A stretch of 64,000 nt of DNA, from contig NC_014216.1 in NCBI RefSeq assembly GCF_000092205.1, positions 496,001 to 560,000 of the forward strand. The letters are read 5' to 3'. Made by a program: the position numbers and the translations under genes. Under the pieces are notes generated by a model. The model searched no databases. It was not told the origin of the DNA and saw only the letters and a program-made list of their open reading frames with translations. Every line of letters starts with the position of its first letter. Position 1 is the stretch's first letter. Shown one piece after another: positions 3,834 to 47,438 of this stretch. The DNA comes from Desulfurivibrio alkaliphilus AHT 2 (GTDB taxonomy: Bacteria; Desulfobacterota; Desulfobulbia; Desulfobulbales; Desulfurivibrionaceae).

Positions 3834-3940
3834 GTAAACGGCCGGCAGTGCCGCAGGTTGCGGCAAGCGAGACGGCGAAGCGTACATCAGTACGCGAGCC
3901 GTCTCGATCGCCGCAAGATGCGGTGCTGCCGGCCGTTTAC
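3834..3940 (+). repeat. Palindromic (REPIN-like) element, copy 1, no flanking arm
   Basis: This 107-nt near-perfect inverted repeat starts GTAAACGG and ends CCGTTTAC, with a central GTAC...GTAC apex. Its inner stem (GCAAGCGAGACGGC with GCCGTCTCGATCGCCGC) belongs to the same sequence subtype as copy 11 (46479-46585). Its right end provides the TAA stop codon of uspA. The 43-nt accessory arm found at other copies is absent. Confidence 0.95.
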
Positions 3941-6618: not shown

Positions 6619-7897
6619 CTCGCAGTCTTTTGGGGATTTTTTTACCGTTTGCGGCCATCAGGGGTGGAAACAGCCCGAAATTGATGTTGCTGGGCTGAAA
6701 AACGTCGGCCTCGGTCCGGATCAAATGGTTGATCAAAGCGCCCAGGGCGGTTTCCGGCGGCGGCGACGACAACGGCTTGCCCAGCAGCAGGGCGGCGGCG
6801 TTGATGCCGGCCAGCAGGCCGCCGGCGGCCGATTCCACATAACCTTCCACGCCGCTGATCTGGCCGGCCAGCAGGATGTCTGCCCGGGCCTGCAGTTGCA
6901 GGCTGGCCTGCAAGACCCTGGGGGCGCAAACAAAAGTGTTGCGGTGGATGCTGCCCAGGCGGGCAAATTGGGCCTGCTCCAAGCCGGGAATCTGGCGGAA
7001 AACCTCTTTTTGCCCGGCATGGCTCAGCTTGGTCTGGAAGCCCACCAGGTTGTAGAGCATACCCTCCCGGTTTTCCTTGCGCAACTGCACCACTGCATAA
7101 GGCTCGCGGCCCGTGCGGGGGTCGATCAGGCCCACCGGTTTCATGGGCCCGAAACGGGGGGTGTCTTCGCCGCGGGCGGCCATGATCTCGATGGGAAGAC
7201 AACCTTCAAAGTATCTGGGTTCCTCGAAATCGTGCAGCGGCACCTGGGGGGCGGTGAGCAGCGCCTTGATGAAGCGCTGGTACTGCTCCCGGTCCATTGG
7301 GCAGTTGAGGTAATCGCCGGGGCCTTCTTCGTAGCGGGAGGCGGAAAAAATTATGTCGCGGTTGAGGGAGTCGGCGTAGACAATGGGGGCGATGGCGTCG
7401 TAAAAGGCCAGTTGCTTGTCGCCGATCAGCCGGGCCAGCGCGGCGGCCAGCCCGGCGGCGGCCAGCGGGCCGGCGGCAATGATGATGGGGGCTCCGCCCG
7501 CCGGGGGAATTTCCGTGACCTCCCGGCGGATGATGGTCACCAGCGGTTCCTGCTCCAGGGCTTGGGTGATGTGCCGGGCAAACAGCGACCGGTCTACGGC
7601 CAAAGCCCGGCCGGCCGGCACCCGGGTGGCGTCCGCCGCCGCCATGACCAAAGAGCCCAGCCGCCGCATCTCTTCCTTGAGCAACCCCACGGCACTGTGC
7701 GGATCCTCGGCCCGTAGGGAATTGCTGCAGACCAGCTCGCCCAGGTCCGGCGACTGGTGGGCCGGACTGCAGTTGCCCGGCTTCATTTCATAAAGCGTTA
7801 CGGCACAGCCACGCCGGGCGACCTGCCAGGCAGCCTCCGCCCCGGCCAGCCCACCACCGATGATGGTTACCGGGTTGTCCTCATAGCCGTTAGTCAA
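6560..7897 (-). CDS. trmFO: TrmFO, folate-dependent tRNA (uracil-54-C5)-methyltransferase
   Basis: The 445-residue protein has the FAD-binding GGGLAGAEAAWQ motif near the N-terminus and the TrmFO signatures YEMKP, ELVCSNSLR, GLLKEEMR and AGRALAVDR. In the C-terminal half it has GQISGVEGYVESAAGGLLAG and NINFGLFPPL, also typical. It uses methylene-tetrahydrofolate and FADH2 to make ribothymidine at position 54 in tRNAs; this enzyme replaces TrmA in many Gram-positive and deltaproteobacterial lineages. The length fits the family. It lies downstream of adk on the same strand, separated by a palindromic element, and its 3' end overlaps the ChaN/PDZ frame. Confidence 0.95.
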   Translation of the reverse strand: MTNGYEDNPVTIIGGGLAGAEAAWQVARRGCAVTLYEMKPGNCSPAHQSPDLGELVCSNSLRAEDPHSAVGLLKEEMRRLGSLVMAAADATRVPAGRALAVDRSLFARHITQALEQEPLVTIIRREVTEIPPAGGAPIIIAAGPLAAAGLAAALARLIGDKQLAFYDAIAPIVYADSLNRDIIFSASRYEEGPGDYLNCPMDREQYQRFIKALLTAPQVPLHDFEEPRYFEGCLPIEIMAARGEDTPRFGPMKPVGLIDPRTGREPYAVVQLRKENREGMLYNLVGFQTKLSHAGQKEVFRQIPGLEQAQFARLGSIHRNTFVCAPRVLQASLQLQARADILLAGQISGVEGYVESAAGGLLAGINAAALLLGKPLSSPPPETALGALINHLIRTEADVFQPSNINFGLFPPLMAANGKKIPKRLRGETRARIARQALADWQKKL

Positions 7898-7925
7898 GAG
7901 TAATAACCTGCTGATATTACGACCC

Positions 7926-8032
7926 GTAAACTTGCAGCAGTGCTGCAGGCTGGGGCAAGCGGACCGGCGCCGCGTACATCAGTACGCAAGCCGGGCCGAT
8001 CGCCCCAGAATGCGGTGCTGCTGCAAGTTTAC
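7926..8032 (+). repeat. Palindromic element, copy 2, no flanking arm
   Basis: The 107-nt inverted repeat starts GTAAACTTGCAGCAG and ends CTGCTGCAAGTTTAC. Its inner stem (GGGGCAAGCGGACCGGC with GCCGGGCCGATCGCCCC) differs from all other copies, but pairing is preserved. It lies between adk and trmFO, and its right end supplies the TAA stop codon of adk. Confidence 0.95.
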
Positions 8033-38510: not shown

Positions 38511-39614
38511 GGTTGCCAGAGCAGGTATGAGATAATGAAGGGGTCCAGGTCGCCGTCCAGCACGTTGTCAACGTTGCCGGTTTCGTGGTTGGTCCGGTGA
38601 TCCTTGACCAGCCGGTAGGGCTGCAGCACATAGGAGCGGATCTGACTGCCCCAGGCGATCTCCTTTTTGTCGCCGTGGAGGTGCTGCTGCTCTTCCTTGC
38701 GGTTGGCCCGTTCCCGCTCATAAAGCTGGGCCTTGAGCATCTTCATCGCCGTGTCTTTGTTGCGGTGCTGGCTCCTCTCGTTCTGGCACTGCACGACAAT
38801 GCCGCTGGGCAGGTGGGTGATGCGGATGGCCGAGCTGGTTTTGTTGACGTGCTGGCCGCCGGCGCCGCTGGCCCGGTAAGTGTCGATGCGCAGGTCTTTG
38901 TCGTTGATCTCCACCTCGATGTTGTCGTCGAGTTCCGGAAAGATGAAGACCGAGGCAAAGGAGGTATGGCGCCGCCCGCCGGTGTCGAAGGGGGAGATTC
39001 TCACCAGCCGGTGAATCCCCATCTCGGAGCGGAGGTAGCCGTAAGCCCAGCGCCCCTTGACCAGCACGGTAACGCTTTTGGTGCCGGCTTCATCGCCGGG
39101 CAGGTGGTCGAGGATCTCGGTGGAAAATCCCTTTTTTTCTGCCCAGCGCAGGTACATGCGCAACAGGATGTCGGTCCAGTCCTGGGCCTCGGTGCCGCCG
39201 GCGCCGGCGTGGATAGTCAACATGGCGTTGCTGGCGTCGTGTTCGCCGTTGAACATGCACTCCAGCTCCATGGCCGCCAGGCGTTGTTCCACGCTGTTCA
39301 GCGCCCGGGACACCTCCTGTTCGGTCTCATGGTCGTTTTCGGCAATGGCCAGTTCCAGCAGCACCTCGGCGTCTTCAAAGGAGTCGATTACCTGCTGCCA
39401 GTTGTCGATGGTGTCCTGCAGGTCGCTCTGCTCCTTTTGCACCCCGGCGGCGGCTTCGGGGTTGTCCCAGAAGTTCGGGGCGGCGCTGCGGTGTTCCAGT
39501 TCCTGGATGCGGAGTAATTTGTTGTCCAGGTCAAAGATGGCTCCGCAGGGTTTGCAGGCGGCCTTGCAGGTTTTCGGCTTTTTCTTTCAGTTCGGGGGCA
39601 ATGCTGAAACTCAT
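38507..39614 (-). CDS. prfB: Peptide chain release factor 2, with programmed +1 frameshift
   Basis: Translation starts at ATG 39614 (MSFSIAPELKEKAENLQGRL, preceded by AGAGGA). After 27 codons it meets the in-frame stop TGA in the heptamer CTTTGAC; a +1 shift onto GAC restores the frame that runs to 38507, giving 368 residues. The main frame contains the tripeptide anticodon SPF (RISPFDTGGRRHTSF) and the catalytic GAGGQHVNKTSSAIR. RF2 ends translation at UGA and UAA and autoregulates through this shift, as in E. coli. GlcF-like follows with a 4-nt overlap. Confidence 0.96.
39530..39536 (-). promoter_or_regulatory. RF2 programmed frameshift site CTTTGAC
   Basis: The minus-strand heptamer CTT-TGA-C is identical to the slippery stop of E. 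coli prfB. A GGAG Shine-Dalgarno-like element lies a few bases upstream (CGGAGCCATCTTTGAC), shorter than the E. coli AGGGGG. Low RF2 levels would promote the shift and raise RF2 synthesis. Confidence 0.93.
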
Positions 39615-39672
39615 GGTGTTCCTCTGTAGGCTAAAGTGTGGTGCTGGGCTGAACGTTTATTTAAAGCTAAAC

Positions 39673-39824
39673 GTAACCGTTTACCAGGGGTGCTAACTTG
39701 CCAGGTATAACGGGCCGTAAGCGAACAGCCGTGCCGCAGGTTCGGGCAAGCAGCCAGGCGCAGCGTACCCCCTGTACGTAAGCCTGGCTGCTTGCCCGAA
39801 GATGCGGTGCGGCTGTTCGCTTAC
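39673..39824 (+). repeat. Palindromic element, copy 8, with left accessory arm
   Basis: Accessory arm at 39673-39716 (GTAACCGTTTACCAGGGGTG start), palindrome at 39717-39824, nearly identical to copies 3 and 12. It lies between lnt and prfB, 3 nt from the lnt stop codon. Just left of it, the stretch GTGCTGGGCTGAACGTTTAT (39641-39660) resembles the right end of another copy and may be a remnant. Confidence 0.95.
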
Positions 39825-39826
39825 AG

Positions 39827-41560
39827 CTAAACACGCTTTATAACATAAATATGCCTGACTATGCCAGCGCTAAGCAGCAGCAGGCAGAGGAGGCCGAAAA
39901 GGTAACCGCCGGCGGTGAACAGGCTGTTCATCTTGCCCGCCGGAGCGGGAAGCGGCAGGGCGGCATGGCGGGCGTCCGGCACGAAAAGTTGGGTGGCCTG
40001 ATGCAGCCGTCCGTCCGGGGTGATCATGACGCTGATCCCGGTGTTGGCGGCTCGGGCCAGGGAGCGGCGATTTTCCACCGCTCGCAGGGCGGCCATGGAA
40101 AGATGCTGGTGGGGGGCGTTGCTTAAGCCGAACCAGGCGTCGTTGGTGATATTGACCAGCAGTTCGGCCCCCCCGGCGGTCATCTGCCGCGCCAGCCGGG
40201 GAAAGATGGCCTCAAAGCAGATCAGGGTGCCGATCTTGCGATCGGCGCAGGTCAGCAGGGCAGGTTCGGGGCCGGGGGTAAAGTCGCCCAGGGTTTCCAC
40301 CACCGGTGCAAAAAAGGGCAGCAGCCGGCGCAAAGGGATATATTCGCCGAAGGGTACCAGGTGTTGCTTGCGGTAAATTCCGGCCGGTTGTTGGACGGCC
40401 GGGTCCGGGCTGATCAGCATGGCGCTGTTGTAATACTGCAACTGCCGGTCATTATCCAGTTCCCGGTGGGGGGCCCCCACCAGCAGGCAACTGCCGTGTT
40501 GGGCGGCAAAATCGATGATGTCGTAAAACAGGTGGTGTTCCAAGGGGTAAAAGGGCAGGGCGGTTTCCGGCCAGACGATGAGCGTCGGCGGCTTCTCCGG
40601 CCCGGCCGCCGTCGCTTCGCTTAGCTCCAGATAGCGTTGGACGGTGGCAAACCGCAGTTGCTGGTCCCACTTCTCCTCCTGGGGAATATTGCCTTGGACC
40701 ACCGCCGTTTCCAGCACTGGGGCGGTGGCCAGGATTTTGTCAAATTGCTGCAGGCGGAGGGAGCCGTAGGCGACCGAAGAGATCAGCAGCAGCACGGCCA
40801 GGGCCAGCGACCAGCGCCCCGGCAGGGCGACTGTGCGGCGGTATGGAAACCGTTCACCAGGGGTGCCAACTTGCCGGTCTGACGTGCCGTAATCGTTCAG
40901 CAGTGCCGCAGGTTCGGGCAAGCAGTCAAGCGCAGCGTACCCCCTGTACGTAAGCTTGGCTGATCGCCCGAAGATGCGGTGCTGCTGAACGATTACCAGC
41001 AGGGCCAGCAGGGTGGAGCTTAGAACGATCAAAAAGGTGATCGCATGGTGGCCGCCCAGGTCGGCCACCTGGGTCAACAGCGGCAGCTGATACTGGCTGT
41101 AGCCCAGATCCTGCCAGGGGAAGCCGGTGAACAGCCTGGCCCGCAACACGTCCAGCCCGACCCAGATCACAGCTGGGGCCCATAAGACCAGCCCCCGGTG
41201 CCTGTTGTCGTTCCCACCCCAGCCGGTAAGGGTGACCAGCAGGGCGGCGAACACCGCGGGGTACAGACTCATGTAGATAACCAGCAGCCCCAGGGCCAGG
41301 GCTGCCACCAAAGGATGCACGCCGCCGTAGTCGCCCAGCACGATGGTGATCCAGTGCAGCAGGGGCAGATGATAAACTACCCCGGCCAGCAGCCCAAGGC
41401 CGGCGGCTCGCCGCCAGTCAAGCTGCTGGATCGCCAGCAGCAGCGGGGCCAGCGCCATCCAGGCCAGCAGGGCATGGCCGCCGCTGCCGGGCGAGGAGAA
41501 AAAGAGCAGCAAGCCGCTAAGCGCCGCCAGGGAAATTTTACCCATGCCCCCCATGCCCAT
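39827..41560 (-). CDS. lnt: Apolipoprotein N-acyltransferase with an in-frame repeat insertion
   Basis: The 577-residue protein has N-terminal membrane helices (for example ALLAWMALAPLLLAI), a periplasmic nitrilase-like domain and a final helix. The catalytic region is intact: WPETALPFY, YRKQHLVPFGEYIP (Lys) and LICFEAIFPRL (Cys). It transfers the third acyl chain to lipoproteins. Residues 189-238 are the translation of palindromic copy 9, inserted between a membrane helix ending LLALL and the helix RWSLALAVLLLISS; without it the length would be about 527, normal for Lnt. The insertion is 150 bp, so the frame is kept. corC lies 12 nt upstream. Confidence 0.93.
   Translation of the reverse strand: MGMGGMGKISLAALSGLLLFFSSPGSGGHALLAWMALAPLLLAIQQLDWRRAAGLGLLAGVVYHLPLLHWITIVLGDYGGVHPLVAALALGLLVIYMSLYPAVFAALLVTLTGWGGNDNRHRGLVLWAPAVIWVGLDVLRARLFTGFPWQDLGYSQYQLPLLTQVADLGGHHAITFLIVLSSTLLALLVIVQQHRIFGRSAKLTYRGYAALDCLPEPAALLNDYGTSDRQVGTPGERFPYRRTVALPGRWSLALAVLLLISSVAYGSLRLQQFDKILATAPVLETAVVQGNIPQEEKWDQQLRFATVQRYLELSEATAAGPEKPPTLIVWPETALPFYPLEHHLFYDIIDFAAQHGSCLLVGAPHRELDNDRQLQYYNSAMLISPDPAVQQPAGIYRKQHLVPFGEYIPLRRLLPFFAPVVETLGDFTPGPEPALLTCADRKIGTLICFEAIFPRLARQMTAGGAELLVNITNDAWFGLSNAPHQHLSMAALRAVENRRSLARAANTGISVMITPDGRLHQATQLFVPDARHAALPLPAPAGKMNSLFTAGGYLFGLLCLLLLSAGIVRHIYVIKRV
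40847..40996 (+). repeat. Palindromic element, copy 9, inside the lnt coding region
   Basis: Accessory arm at 40847-40888 (AAACCGTTCACCAGGGGTGC start) and palindrome at 40889-40996 (GTAATCGTTCAGCAG ... CTGCTGAACGATTAC), with the same sequence type as copy 4. It has no stop codon in the lnt frame and is exactly 150 bp, so it adds 50 residues (VIVQQHRIFGRSAKL... to ...GTPGERF). Confidence 0.95.
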
Positions 41561-44232: not shown

Positions 44233-46482
44233 ATGGAAGACTTACGAAAACGTTTGCTCAAGGCCGAAGAGCGCATCAGTTACCTCGGCTGGATCAAGGA
44301 GGGCTCGGAATGGGCCAACCTGCCCGCCCTGCAGGAGAAGCTGCAGAGTCTGCGGGATGCCTTTTACGAGCACAGCCACGAGCACCTGGCGGAAAAAATC
44401 GGCGCCCTGGAGGAATCCCTGACTTTTCTGGAAAGTCGCTGCGAGGAGACCTTGAGCCCCATGGAACGGGTGCGGATCGTCCGCAGTCCGCTGCGGTTTT
44501 CGCTGAAAGATATCCTGGAAAACGTTTACGAGGAATATACCGAGCTGGGCGGTGAAGAAGATGCCAATATCGATCCGGCCCTGGTGGCGGCCCGGGCCAG
44601 TATTGCCCGGCGGGTCAAAAACAAGGTGGTGATGCAGCAGGTCATGGTCATCGGCCATGAAAAGGGGCACGGTGAGGAATACCGTAACGGCGGCAGCACC
44701 AAGCCCTGGGGCAACGAGAAGGCCCTGCGCTACATGCGGGTGGCGGAAACCGAAGGGATCCCCATCCACTTTTATGTTTTCACCCCGGGGGCCTTCCCCG
44801 TGGAAGAGTATCCCGGTGCCGGGCAGCAGATCGCTCGCAACCTCTACGCCATGGCCAAGTTACGAGTGCCGATGGTTGCGGTGACCTCGGAAGGGGGGTC
44901 AGGCGGGGCCGAGGCCGTGGGGATGGGTGATTTCCGGCTGATGTTTTCCCACGGCTATTATTCGGTCATTTCTCCGGAGGGGGCCGCCGCCATCGAGGGC
45001 AAGATCCGGGAAGGGGTCAAGGTGCCCAAAGACCTGCTGGAAAACTGCGCCGAGCGCCTGGCCATCACCGCCGAAGACAACCTGCGTCACGGCACCATCG
45101 ATCGAATTATCCAGGAACCCCTGCTGGGGGCCAGGCGGGATGATTTTACCTTTTTCCGTCGGGTTAAAGACGAGATGATTCGGGCCACCGACGAGGTGGT
45201 GCTGAAAACCAAAAGCCTGCGGGCTTTCCGGGCCTATGAGTTGAAGATGGAAAAGGCCGGGCCCGATGATGATCTGCGGGTTTACGTTTCCTGGGAACTG
45301 GCCGATGACGAGATCGGCCGCCTGCTCCAGCACCGCTCCCGCAAATACCGCCAGATGGCGACCAAGGCCTACCGGGAACACCTGACCACCGGAGCGGCGC
45401 TGTACCGCCGGGTCGGTCGTGGGCTGGCCAAGTTTTATTACACCATTCGCTACGACGTGCTAAAAAGCCGGCACAAGCAGGTGAAGAAGGTGATGCAGGA
45501 CGTCTCCGGCGAGGGCTCGGTGCTGATCAAGCAAATGTCGGCCCCCTTTACCGCGGCCTACGACTTCATCACCCGCAAGCCTGGTTCCCGCGCGACCCGT
45601 GGTTCGGCGGGATGGGGCACGAGCAGCCCGGAACAGATTGAATATGGCGAGATCTACACCTCCTCGCTGGCCAATGAAGACCGTACGGTGAGTTGCCCCA
45701 ACGCCGAGCGACACGGCTGCAAGGATCTCTGGGTGCCGGATCTTTATGGCGAGTTCTGCGGGGTCTGCGAAAACTGCGGCCACCATTTTCCCCTGGAATA
45801 CCAGTGGTATATGAAGCATCTTTTTGAGCCTGATTCCATCCGGGAGTTCAACGCCGACCTGGCTTCCATCAACCCGCTCTCTTTCCCCGGGTTCGACAAG
45901 AAGCTGGAGGCGGCCCGCAAAAAGACCGGCCGCCCCTGCGCCATGATCACCTTCGATGCCCGGGTAATGGGAATCGACATTGTGGTGGCCATGCTCTACA
46001 GCGATTTCCGCAATGGTACGGTGGGTGCGGCCGAGGGTGAAAAGTTTGCCCGGGCCTGTGAGATTGCCCGGATCAAGCGGCGGCCATTGCTCTCGTATGT
46101 ACACACCACCGGCGGGATCAGGATTCACGAGGGCACCATGGGGGTTATTCAGATGCCCAAGTGCACCATGGCGGTGCGGGAATATATCGACTCAGGGGGC
46201 TTGTATATCGTGGTTTACGATAACAACTCCTATGCCGGGCCGGTGGCCAGCTTTCTGGGCTGTTCGCCCTACCAGTTCGCCATCCGTTCCAGCCGGCTGG
46301 GCTTTGCCGGCCCCCGGGTAATCCGCGATACCACCGGGGAAGATGTGCCGCCCGATTACCACGGTGCCCGCAGCGCCCTGAAACGGGGGCATATCCAGGG
46401 TATCTGGGACCGCCGGGACTTCCGGCGCAATCTGCACAAGTCGCTGATGACCATGGGCGGCGGTAATCTTTATTACCGGTAA
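44233..46482 (+). CDS. Fused AccA-AccD carboxyltransferase
   Basis: The 749-residue protein joins both carboxyltransferase halves. Residues about 20-330 resemble AccA (VMVIGHEKGHG, FVFTPGAFPVEEYPG-like FTPGAF, SEGGSGGAEAVGMGD, YYSVISPEGAAAI). Residues about 475-740 resemble AccD, with a Cys-rich zinc ribbon (CPNAERHGCKD and CGVCENCGHHF), then LEAARKKTGRPCAMI, GEKFARACEIA and GFAGPRVIRDTTGED. Order alpha then beta is the reverse of the beta-alpha order in PccB/AccD5-type fused enzymes. A helical linker of about 110 residues separates the halves. The stop TAA comes from palindromic copy 10. It should carboxylate acetyl-CoA, though another acyl-CoA is possible. Confidence 0.9.
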   Translation: MEDLRKRLLKAEERISYLGWIKEGSEWANLPALQEKLQSLRDAFYEHSHEHLAEKIGALEESLTFLESRCEETLSPMERVRIVRSPLRFSLKDILENVYEEYTELGGEEDANIDPALVAARASIARRVKNKVVMQQVMVIGHEKGHGEEYRNGGSTKPWGNEKALRYMRVAETEGIPIHFYVFTPGAFPVEEYPGAGQQIARNLYAMAKLRVPMVAVTSEGGSGGAEAVGMGDFRLMFSHGYYSVISPEGAAAIEGKIREGVKVPKDLLENCAERLAITAEDNLRHGTIDRIIQEPLLGARRDDFTFFRRVKDEMIRATDEVVLKTKSLRAFRAYELKMEKAGPDDDLRVYVSWELADDEIGRLLQHRSRKYRQMATKAYREHLTTGAALYRRVGRGLAKFYYTIRYDVLKSRHKQVKKVMQDVSGEGSVLIKQMSAPFTAAYDFITRKPGSRATRGSAGWGTSSPEQIEYGEIYTSSLANEDRTVSCPNAERHGCKDLWVPDLYGEFCGVCENCGHHFPLEYQWYMKHLFEPDSIREFNADLASINPLSFPGFDKKLEAARKKTGRPCAMITFDARVMGIDIVVAMLYSDFRNGTVGAAEGEKFARACEIARIKRRPLLSYVHTTGGIRIHEGTMGVIQMPKCTMAVREYIDSGGLYIVVYDNNSYAGPVASFLGCSPYQFAIRSSRLGFAGPRVIRDTTGEDVPPDYHGARSALKRGHIQGIWDRRDFRRNLHKSLMTMGGGNLYYR

Positions 46483-46585
46483 ACGGGCAGCAGCACCGCA
46501 TCTTGCGGCGATCGAGCCGGCTCACGTACTAATGTACGCTTCGCCGTCTCGCTTGCCGCAATCTGCGGCACTGCTGCCCGTTTAC
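46479..46585 (-). repeat. Palindromic element, copy 10, no flanking arm
   Basis: The 107-nt palindrome GTAAACGGGCAGCAG ... CTGCTGCCCGTTTAC is the inverse orientation of copy 1 and shares its inner-stem subtype (GCGGCGATCGAGCCGGC and GCCGTCTCGCTTGCCGC; a CCGGC/GCCGT pair includes a G-T). It provides the stop codon of the fused carboxyltransferase gene and separates it from the carrier gene. Confidence 0.95.
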
Positions 46586-47284: not shown

Positions 47285-47438
47285 GTAAGCGAACAGCCGT
47301 GCCGCAGGTTCGGGCAAGCAGCCAGGTGCAGCGTACCCCCTGTACGTAAGCCTGGCTGATCGCCCGAAGATGCGGCACGGCTGCTCGCTTACGGTTCGTT
47401 AAACCACCAGGTTAGTAGTGCCTCTGGTGCACGGTTAC
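47285..47438 (+). repeat. Palindromic element, copy 11, accessory arm in opposite relation
   Basis: Palindrome at 47285-47392 (GTAAGCGAACAGCCG ... CGGCTGCTCGCTTAC) in the orientation of copies 3 and 8, but with the accessory arm on the right and inverted (47393-47438, ending GGTGCACGGTTAC). In copies 3, 4, 7, 8 and 9 the arm precedes a palindrome of this orientation. The palindrome therefore appears flipped relative to its arm. Confidence 0.93.

Follow-up and report, generated by a model that had tools for sequence, protein, structure and literature searches.

Apolipoprotein N-acyltransferase (Lnt) is a conserved envelope enzyme and is essential in E. coli. In Desulfurivibrio alkaliphilus AHT 2 the lnt gene contains a copy of a palindromic repeat, which raises the question how such a repeat came to lie within the reading frame of this enzyme, and what it adds to the protein. 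The locus lies in the window analyzed here, a stretch of 64,000 nucleotides corresponding to positions 496001-560000 of the 3,097,763-bp single-contig genome. An earlier note, made from the letters of the window alone, had described a stop-free copy within lnt that supplies residues 189-238, and on this the open reading frame and the mapping of the repeat agree. The unit is indeed in frame, but it measures 151 bp, one base more than the 150 bp given there, with the ends GAAACCGTTC...GAACGATTAC. The features of the locus are as follows.

39827-41560, minus strand: lnt (apolipoprotein N-acyltransferase), a 577-aa open reading frame with the Pfam domains LNT_N and CN_hydrolase and with solved Lnt relatives by sequence and by fold.
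40846-40996, minus strand, in frame (family consensus orientation plus): 151-bp MITE copy of subfamily A in lnt, assigned by its genome-wide family and its ends.
40846-40888: accessory arm of this copy with the outer terminal repeat GAAACCGTTCACCAGG (consensus GTAACCGTTCACCAGG).
40889-40996: 108-bp palindrome of this copy, GTAATCGTTCAGCAG...CTGCTGAACGATTAC, DNA fold z = -7.8.
39673-39824: 152-bp MITE copy, the second at this locus, which lies at the stop codon of lnt and has the ends GTAA and TTAC.
39825-39832, other half at 39665-39672: target duplication AGCTAAAC of the second copy, 8/8 match.

The Pfam domains cover residues 15-183 (LNT_N) and 285-519 (CN_hydrolase) of the protein, and the insert lies between them. 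On the lnt strand a very stable RNA hairpin is predicted (-80 kcal/mol, z -7.1). A second Lnt, which had also been considered, was not found in this genome among the matches listed (36 of 228 candidates scored), the other rows covering the insert region only. Rfam matches in 39600-41100 (E up to 1) numbered three, all far under the gathering scores, and we judged them to be chance. The duplication flanking the second copy includes the lnt stop codon (39827-39829). The copy within lnt, by contrast with five of the seven other arm-bearing copies in the window, which show a duplication at 7-8 of 8 positions, has no 8-bp target duplication: its flanks GCGGTATG and CAGCAGGG agree at 2/8. Its own insertion event is therefore not directly readable, and one has to suppose that a flank was lost, that recombination took place or that an older copy was converted. 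Eight arm-bearing copies are present in the window, as had been counted before, if a partial-arm copy at about 7885-8032 is included.

The nature of the repeat was read from its family. With the 150-bp unit as query, at least 39 further copies in the same orientation were found in the same genome at 87-95% identity (40 of 283 candidates scored), the Lnt copy being up to 94% identical to other copies. The 22-bp core of the palindrome matched 189 times at three mismatches or fewer, the reversed control pattern not once (0), and merging of 183 listed core positions gave a copy number of at least 177. The 140 stretches retrieved around core matches (L039-L178) were searched with nhmmer and yielded 195 non-overlapping matches, 92 of which were taken as full copies (model start at 6 or less and end at 147 or more of 150); the other 103 were excluded from the analysis of the ends. 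Full copies have sharp ends, GTAAC...TTAC, with the consensus terminal inverted repeats GTAACCGTTCACCAG and GTAATCGTTCAGCAG (family terminal repeats: GTAAnCGTTCAnCAG). The direct repeats that flank them are exactly 8 bp long: the identity of the flanks is 0.79 at this length, compared to 0.24-0.32 at every other length between 3 and 13. A duplication of at least 7/8 was present in 62 of the 92 full copies, against 0.8 expected from shuffled flanks, while the flanks of 16 copies matched at three or fewer of 8 positions. With terminal repeats, 8-bp duplications, a length of about 150 bp, no transposase and at least 177 copies, the repeat is a MITE. This corrects the earlier view of it as a selfish palindrome of unknown mobility.

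Palindrome-only copies behave differently from arm-bearing ones. A duplication of at least 7/8 was found in only 4 of 63 such copies in the retrieved stretches, and they may have originated or spread by another route. The palindrome-only copies of the window, at 3834-3940, 46479-46585 and 47285-47392, also lack an 8-bp duplication. Of 170 palindromes (L039-L178), 101 have 12-nt ends that are fully complementary to each other, compared to 19 after the right ends were re-dealt, and these covarying end variants point to hairpin-keeping subfamilies or to arm-to-arm correction. Five subfamily-B copies matching their model over 1-133, 1-131 or 3-133 have flanks that agree at 6, 7, 8, 8 and 3 of 8 positions. 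In a related genome, G003, many contigs terminate in 115-bp copies that have no arm and are almost identical, which looks like a recent amplification that broke the assembly.

According to passages in two papers, IS66-family elements have the ends GTAAGCGTCC or GTAACCGTCC (PMC12888890) and generally produce 8-bp duplications (PMC3916326). The MITE family shares these traits, combining GTAA ends with an 8-bp duplication. A single IS66 transposase (PF03050) is encoded in the genome, within an element whose ends are GTAAGCGCTCAGCA and GTAAGCGCTCAATG. Among the outer 12 bases, right ends of the MITE share 9-10 with these ends and left ends 7-9, the left ends of subfamily B agreeing at only 7/12. 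The IS66 copy itself has no duplication (2/8); on inspection by eye, tnpB is missing and tnpC is short. It is located at 1311-2842 of L179, between open reading frames that by eye resemble a glycosyltransferase and a nucleotide-sugar enzyme, and is apparently decayed; a search for MITE stretches in this locus gave nothing beyond chance-level matches. The IS66 element of the congener G002 has identical ends and an open frame of 527 aa, and likewise no duplication (0/8). No PF03050 match was obtained in the MITE-rich genomes G001 and G013 (79% and 95% complete). On the resemblance of the ends and the length of the duplication, the MITE has likely been mobilized by IS66.

To describe the effect on the protein, an AlphaFold2 model of Lnt was built with 27 relatives (pLDDT 87, pTM 0.89). 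Its fold agrees with that of solved Lnt structures (TM-score by target 0.78-0.84 over 24 chains). The insert had been placed between two membrane helices, and this is borne out: TM-like stretches flank it at residues 170-194 and 243-270, and the model has helices at 171-196 and 249-279, mostly with pLDDT above 90. The first eight residues of the element extend the upstream helix in the model, and residues 200-216 and 218-238 have a pLDDT below 50. A second, weaker low-confidence stretch is seen at about 401-430. The catalytic motifs are intact, as had been stated; E332, K398 and C448 are invariant in the 28-row alignment. These residues correspond to the E. coli triad E267/K335/C387, and C387 is named in the titles of matched solved Lnt structures. 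The model thus predicts a disordered insert in an intact Lnt fold. By analogy with the E. coli topology, the loop carrying the insert is probably cytoplasmic; the charges in the loop, six K/R against five D/E, do not decide this placement.

Lnt matches were obtained in all 38 genomes searched, the present one included. We measured the linker as the stretch equivalent to F175-Q288, for which 107 of 110 rows were usable. The segment had been expected to be missing from relatives, and their linker is much shorter, with a median of 66 residues in 106 other Lnt proteins compared to 114 here. Only three of the 106 exceed 100 residues, those of G004, G029 and G001. The element models were run on 29 loci of relatives (L010-L038), whereas 80 more distant loci (L218-L297) were measured for length only. 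Two elements within the lnt frame were found among the 29. G001, another species of the genus, has an in-frame subfamily-B element 10 codons downstream of the insertion point in D. alkaliphilus, with flanks CGAAAAAC and CCAAAAAT that agree at 6/8 (counted by eye). G029, which belongs to another family of the same order and was found via its long linker, has a 154-bp element, also in frame (154 + 8 = 162, 54 codons), with flanks GGCTTGTT and GACTTGTT that agree at 7/8. Three other two-ended copies in G029 have flanks matching at 8, 7 and 3 of 8 positions, and its genome holds 47 matches to its element, a count in which both strands of the palindrome may be included. The Lnt of G004 (L012) has a long linker of unrelated sequence and an extra stretch in an earlier loop; as a candidate element the linker was rejected for want of a significant match.

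Six repeat-rich genomes are known here: G000 (this organism), G001, G002, G003, G013 and G029. Three of them (G000, G001 and G029) carry an element in the Lnt loop, amounting to at least three insertion events, and a relic is probable in G002; in the lnt genes of G003 and G013 no element was matched. Further genomes screened for the repeat gave 2 matches (G004) or none (G009 and G036, with the G029 element as query). The elements of G001 and G029 differ and lie at different points of the loop, which was struck independently in these two genomes. Since Lnt was picked for the insertion in D. alkaliphilus, this genome does not count as independent support for a hotspot. It seems doubtful to us that the loop ahead of the final N-terminal helix serves as a genuine landing pad, with insertions favored there and not merely tolerated. 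A cause might then be sought in the transposition machinery, or in an mRNA hairpin or long disordered loop that aids membrane insertion of Lnt or its regulation, which as part of the same idea we regard as equally doubtful.

The element is found in other genes as well. We screened 196 copies for an open reading frame that runs through the copy and extends 40 codons or more to either side of it; 23 copies were spanned, and 21 of these were scanned with Pfam (L152 and L068 were left out). Domain support on both sides of or around the element was obtained for four: Lnt, MurF (L123), the M1 aminopeptidase PepN (L051) and a UvrD-type helicase (L075). The cleanest in-frame case is MurF. Its element of 133 bp has a perfect duplication (TTGCCGAT, 8/8), and 133 + 8 gives 141 nt or 47 codons. 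It is missing from all seven relatives with a MurF locus, where the flanks are 52-89% identical and the gap comprises exactly 47 columns in three congeners and 48 in four others; G003, the eighth genome searched, gave no proper MurF match. The PepN element (151 bp, flanks 7/8) is missing from six of seven relatives, and the seventh, G002, has different, unmatched residues at this place. The helicase element is missing from 7/7 relatives, but this case is weaker, the element being truncated (138 bp) and the loop variable in relatives. In G001, PepN has an in-frame B element at a different place (L306), and a further one is read in a Mur-ligase-like frame of 605 aa that lies upstream of MurF (L299).

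Several candidates were set aside. Spanning frames without a Pfam match (e.g. L132, L112, L162, L153 and L060) were not counted as in-gene copies. In PagL (L097), TrpF (L057), PPDK (L174), FliO (L138) and an EngA-like GTPase (L082) the element precedes the domain on the N-terminal side and probably lies ahead of the real start codon. Disrupted genes were looked for in the empty-site open reading frames of the 92 full copies. Nine translations, a non-systematic sample, were read by eye; several resembled antisense shadow frames and others chance read-through between neighboring genes.

Taken together, we consider it highly probable that the insert in Lnt is a MITE, most likely moved by IS66, that is read in frame as about 50 disordered residues in a tolerant loop. 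The element is non-autonomous; most likely a transposase of the IS66 family moved it, and it would have landed in the loop that joins the last two membrane helices of the N-terminal part. The gene would have stayed readable because the minus-strand frame of the element is open and the net added length preserves the frame, and Lnt would then be made with the extra residues, presumably with its activity retained. For the genus, a published proteome of D. dismutans covers 1,864 of 2,491 predicted proteins (passages in PMC12142623).

An opposite origin, in which Lnt had the 50 residues natively from early on and relatives lost them, the repeats elsewhere being derived from lnt, might draw on the variable length of the linker and on the long, unrelated linker of G004. 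It is largely refuted by the shorter linkers of the other Lnt proteins, by the high copy number with transposition scars elsewhere and by the different elements at different loop points in G001 and G029, and we give it next to no weight. An older element in the loop, common with G002 and refreshed here when a younger copy recombined with it or converted it, would explain why the Lnt copy lacks a duplication although it is so similar to other copies. At this site, and in the same orientation, G002 carries an arm-like stretch that is probably a relic of an arm: its matches to three of four G002-type arms are beaten or equalled by only 6-8 of 7910 control windows and 0 of 2000 shuffles. The fourth arm is weak there (equalled by 145/7910 windows and 25/2000 shuffles), and nhmmer found no element in the G002 linker. 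Moreover, the stretch resembles G002-type arms and not significantly the arm of the D. alkaliphilus family, for which 80 of 978 control windows were as good, and this fits a separate insertion. We regard a refreshed older element as rather unlikely.

The remaining alternatives concern the product and the selection of the element. The stability of the mRNA hairpin could suggest that it is removed by ribosome skipping or excision, so that no protein with the 50 residues is ever made. Plain reading suffices, however, as the insert has no stop and keeps the frame. All four Pfam-supported in-gene copies of this genome, and four more in genes of relatives, are in frame, whereas skipping needs no frame; removal is thus very unlikely. 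The element might also be a coding element adapted to genes, with a selected peptide, as proposed for the Rickettsia palindromic elements (RPE). One frame is open in 35 of the 92 full copies, yielding a recognizable peptide, and the length of the element plus 8 is divisible by three in 58 of 92. However, it is not divisible in the other 34, 28 of which are one base short, and at least one open frame is present in 52 of 92 copies, as in Markov-1 simulations (mean 53.2, range 40-62, 30 runs). Of the 176 copies that measure 95 bp or more (20 shorter copies were not counted), only 10 lie inside genes of a proxy set, compared to 1852 of 2800 windows drawn at random from the stretches that hold the copies. 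The nearest gene end within 60 bp is a 3' end for 109 copies and a 5' end for 48. The family is not adapted to genes, and most copies lie outside them; the suggestion that stop-free frames would favor life inside genes did not hold. We accordingly disfavor a coding element as quite improbable. The in-gene copies of the MITE look instead like survivors that kept the frame and hit a permissive place.

In-frame MITE fusions have been described in other bacteria, so that a selfish palindrome as a protein segment, although confirmed here as an in-frame part of lnt, is not a new phenomenon. A review states that in-frame fusions by intragenic MITEs are not unusual and that RPE are the extreme case (PMC10969869), and passages in other papers give in-frame examples for Coxiella QMITEs (PMC5896051) and enterobacterial RU elements (PMC2759123). 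Like the enterobacterial RU/ERIC, Coxiella QMITE and Anabaena MITE families, the present family is short, non-autonomous and sometimes in frame in genes. It differs in its IS66-like ends, exact 8-bp duplications, 108-bp inner palindrome and occurrence in Desulfobacterota, and in that one membrane-enzyme loop was struck repeatedly. RPE are, in the same review passages, also palindromic, about 150 bp long and in frame in conserved genes with a recognizable peptide, a trait paralleled here by Lnt, MurF, PepN and the UvrD-type helicase. Nearly half of the RPE lie in open reading frames according to these passages (PMC10969869), in contrast to the few in-gene copies here, and in the present family a transposition scar is visible. 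GTAA ends and 8-bp duplications are shared with IS66 insertion sequences (passages in PMC12888890 and PMC3916326), but the MITE has no transposase. REP sequences are likewise high-copy palindromes and mostly intergenic, but are described in a passage of PMC3733652 as 20-40 bp long with a GTAG or CGTC tag, whereas here the palindrome has 108 bp and the ends are GTAA/TTAC, and arm-bearing copies have target duplications. In the literature searched the family appears undescribed: Desulfurivibrio combined with 'miniature inverted-repeat' gave no match, and the D. alkaliphilus genome paper (PMC5016858) mentions neither 'transposase' nor 'insertion sequence'. The MITE family and the lineage seem new.

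For a specialist, the surprise is that the same loop of the same enzyme was filled at least three times. Scars and empty sites show how a mobile hairpin becomes a protein segment, namely through a net length divisible by three, an open frame and a permissive loop. The question raised by RPE, how palindromes enter proteins, becomes testable in a cultivated environmental organism, and the repeated use of one Lnt loop is a natural insertion-tolerance experiment.
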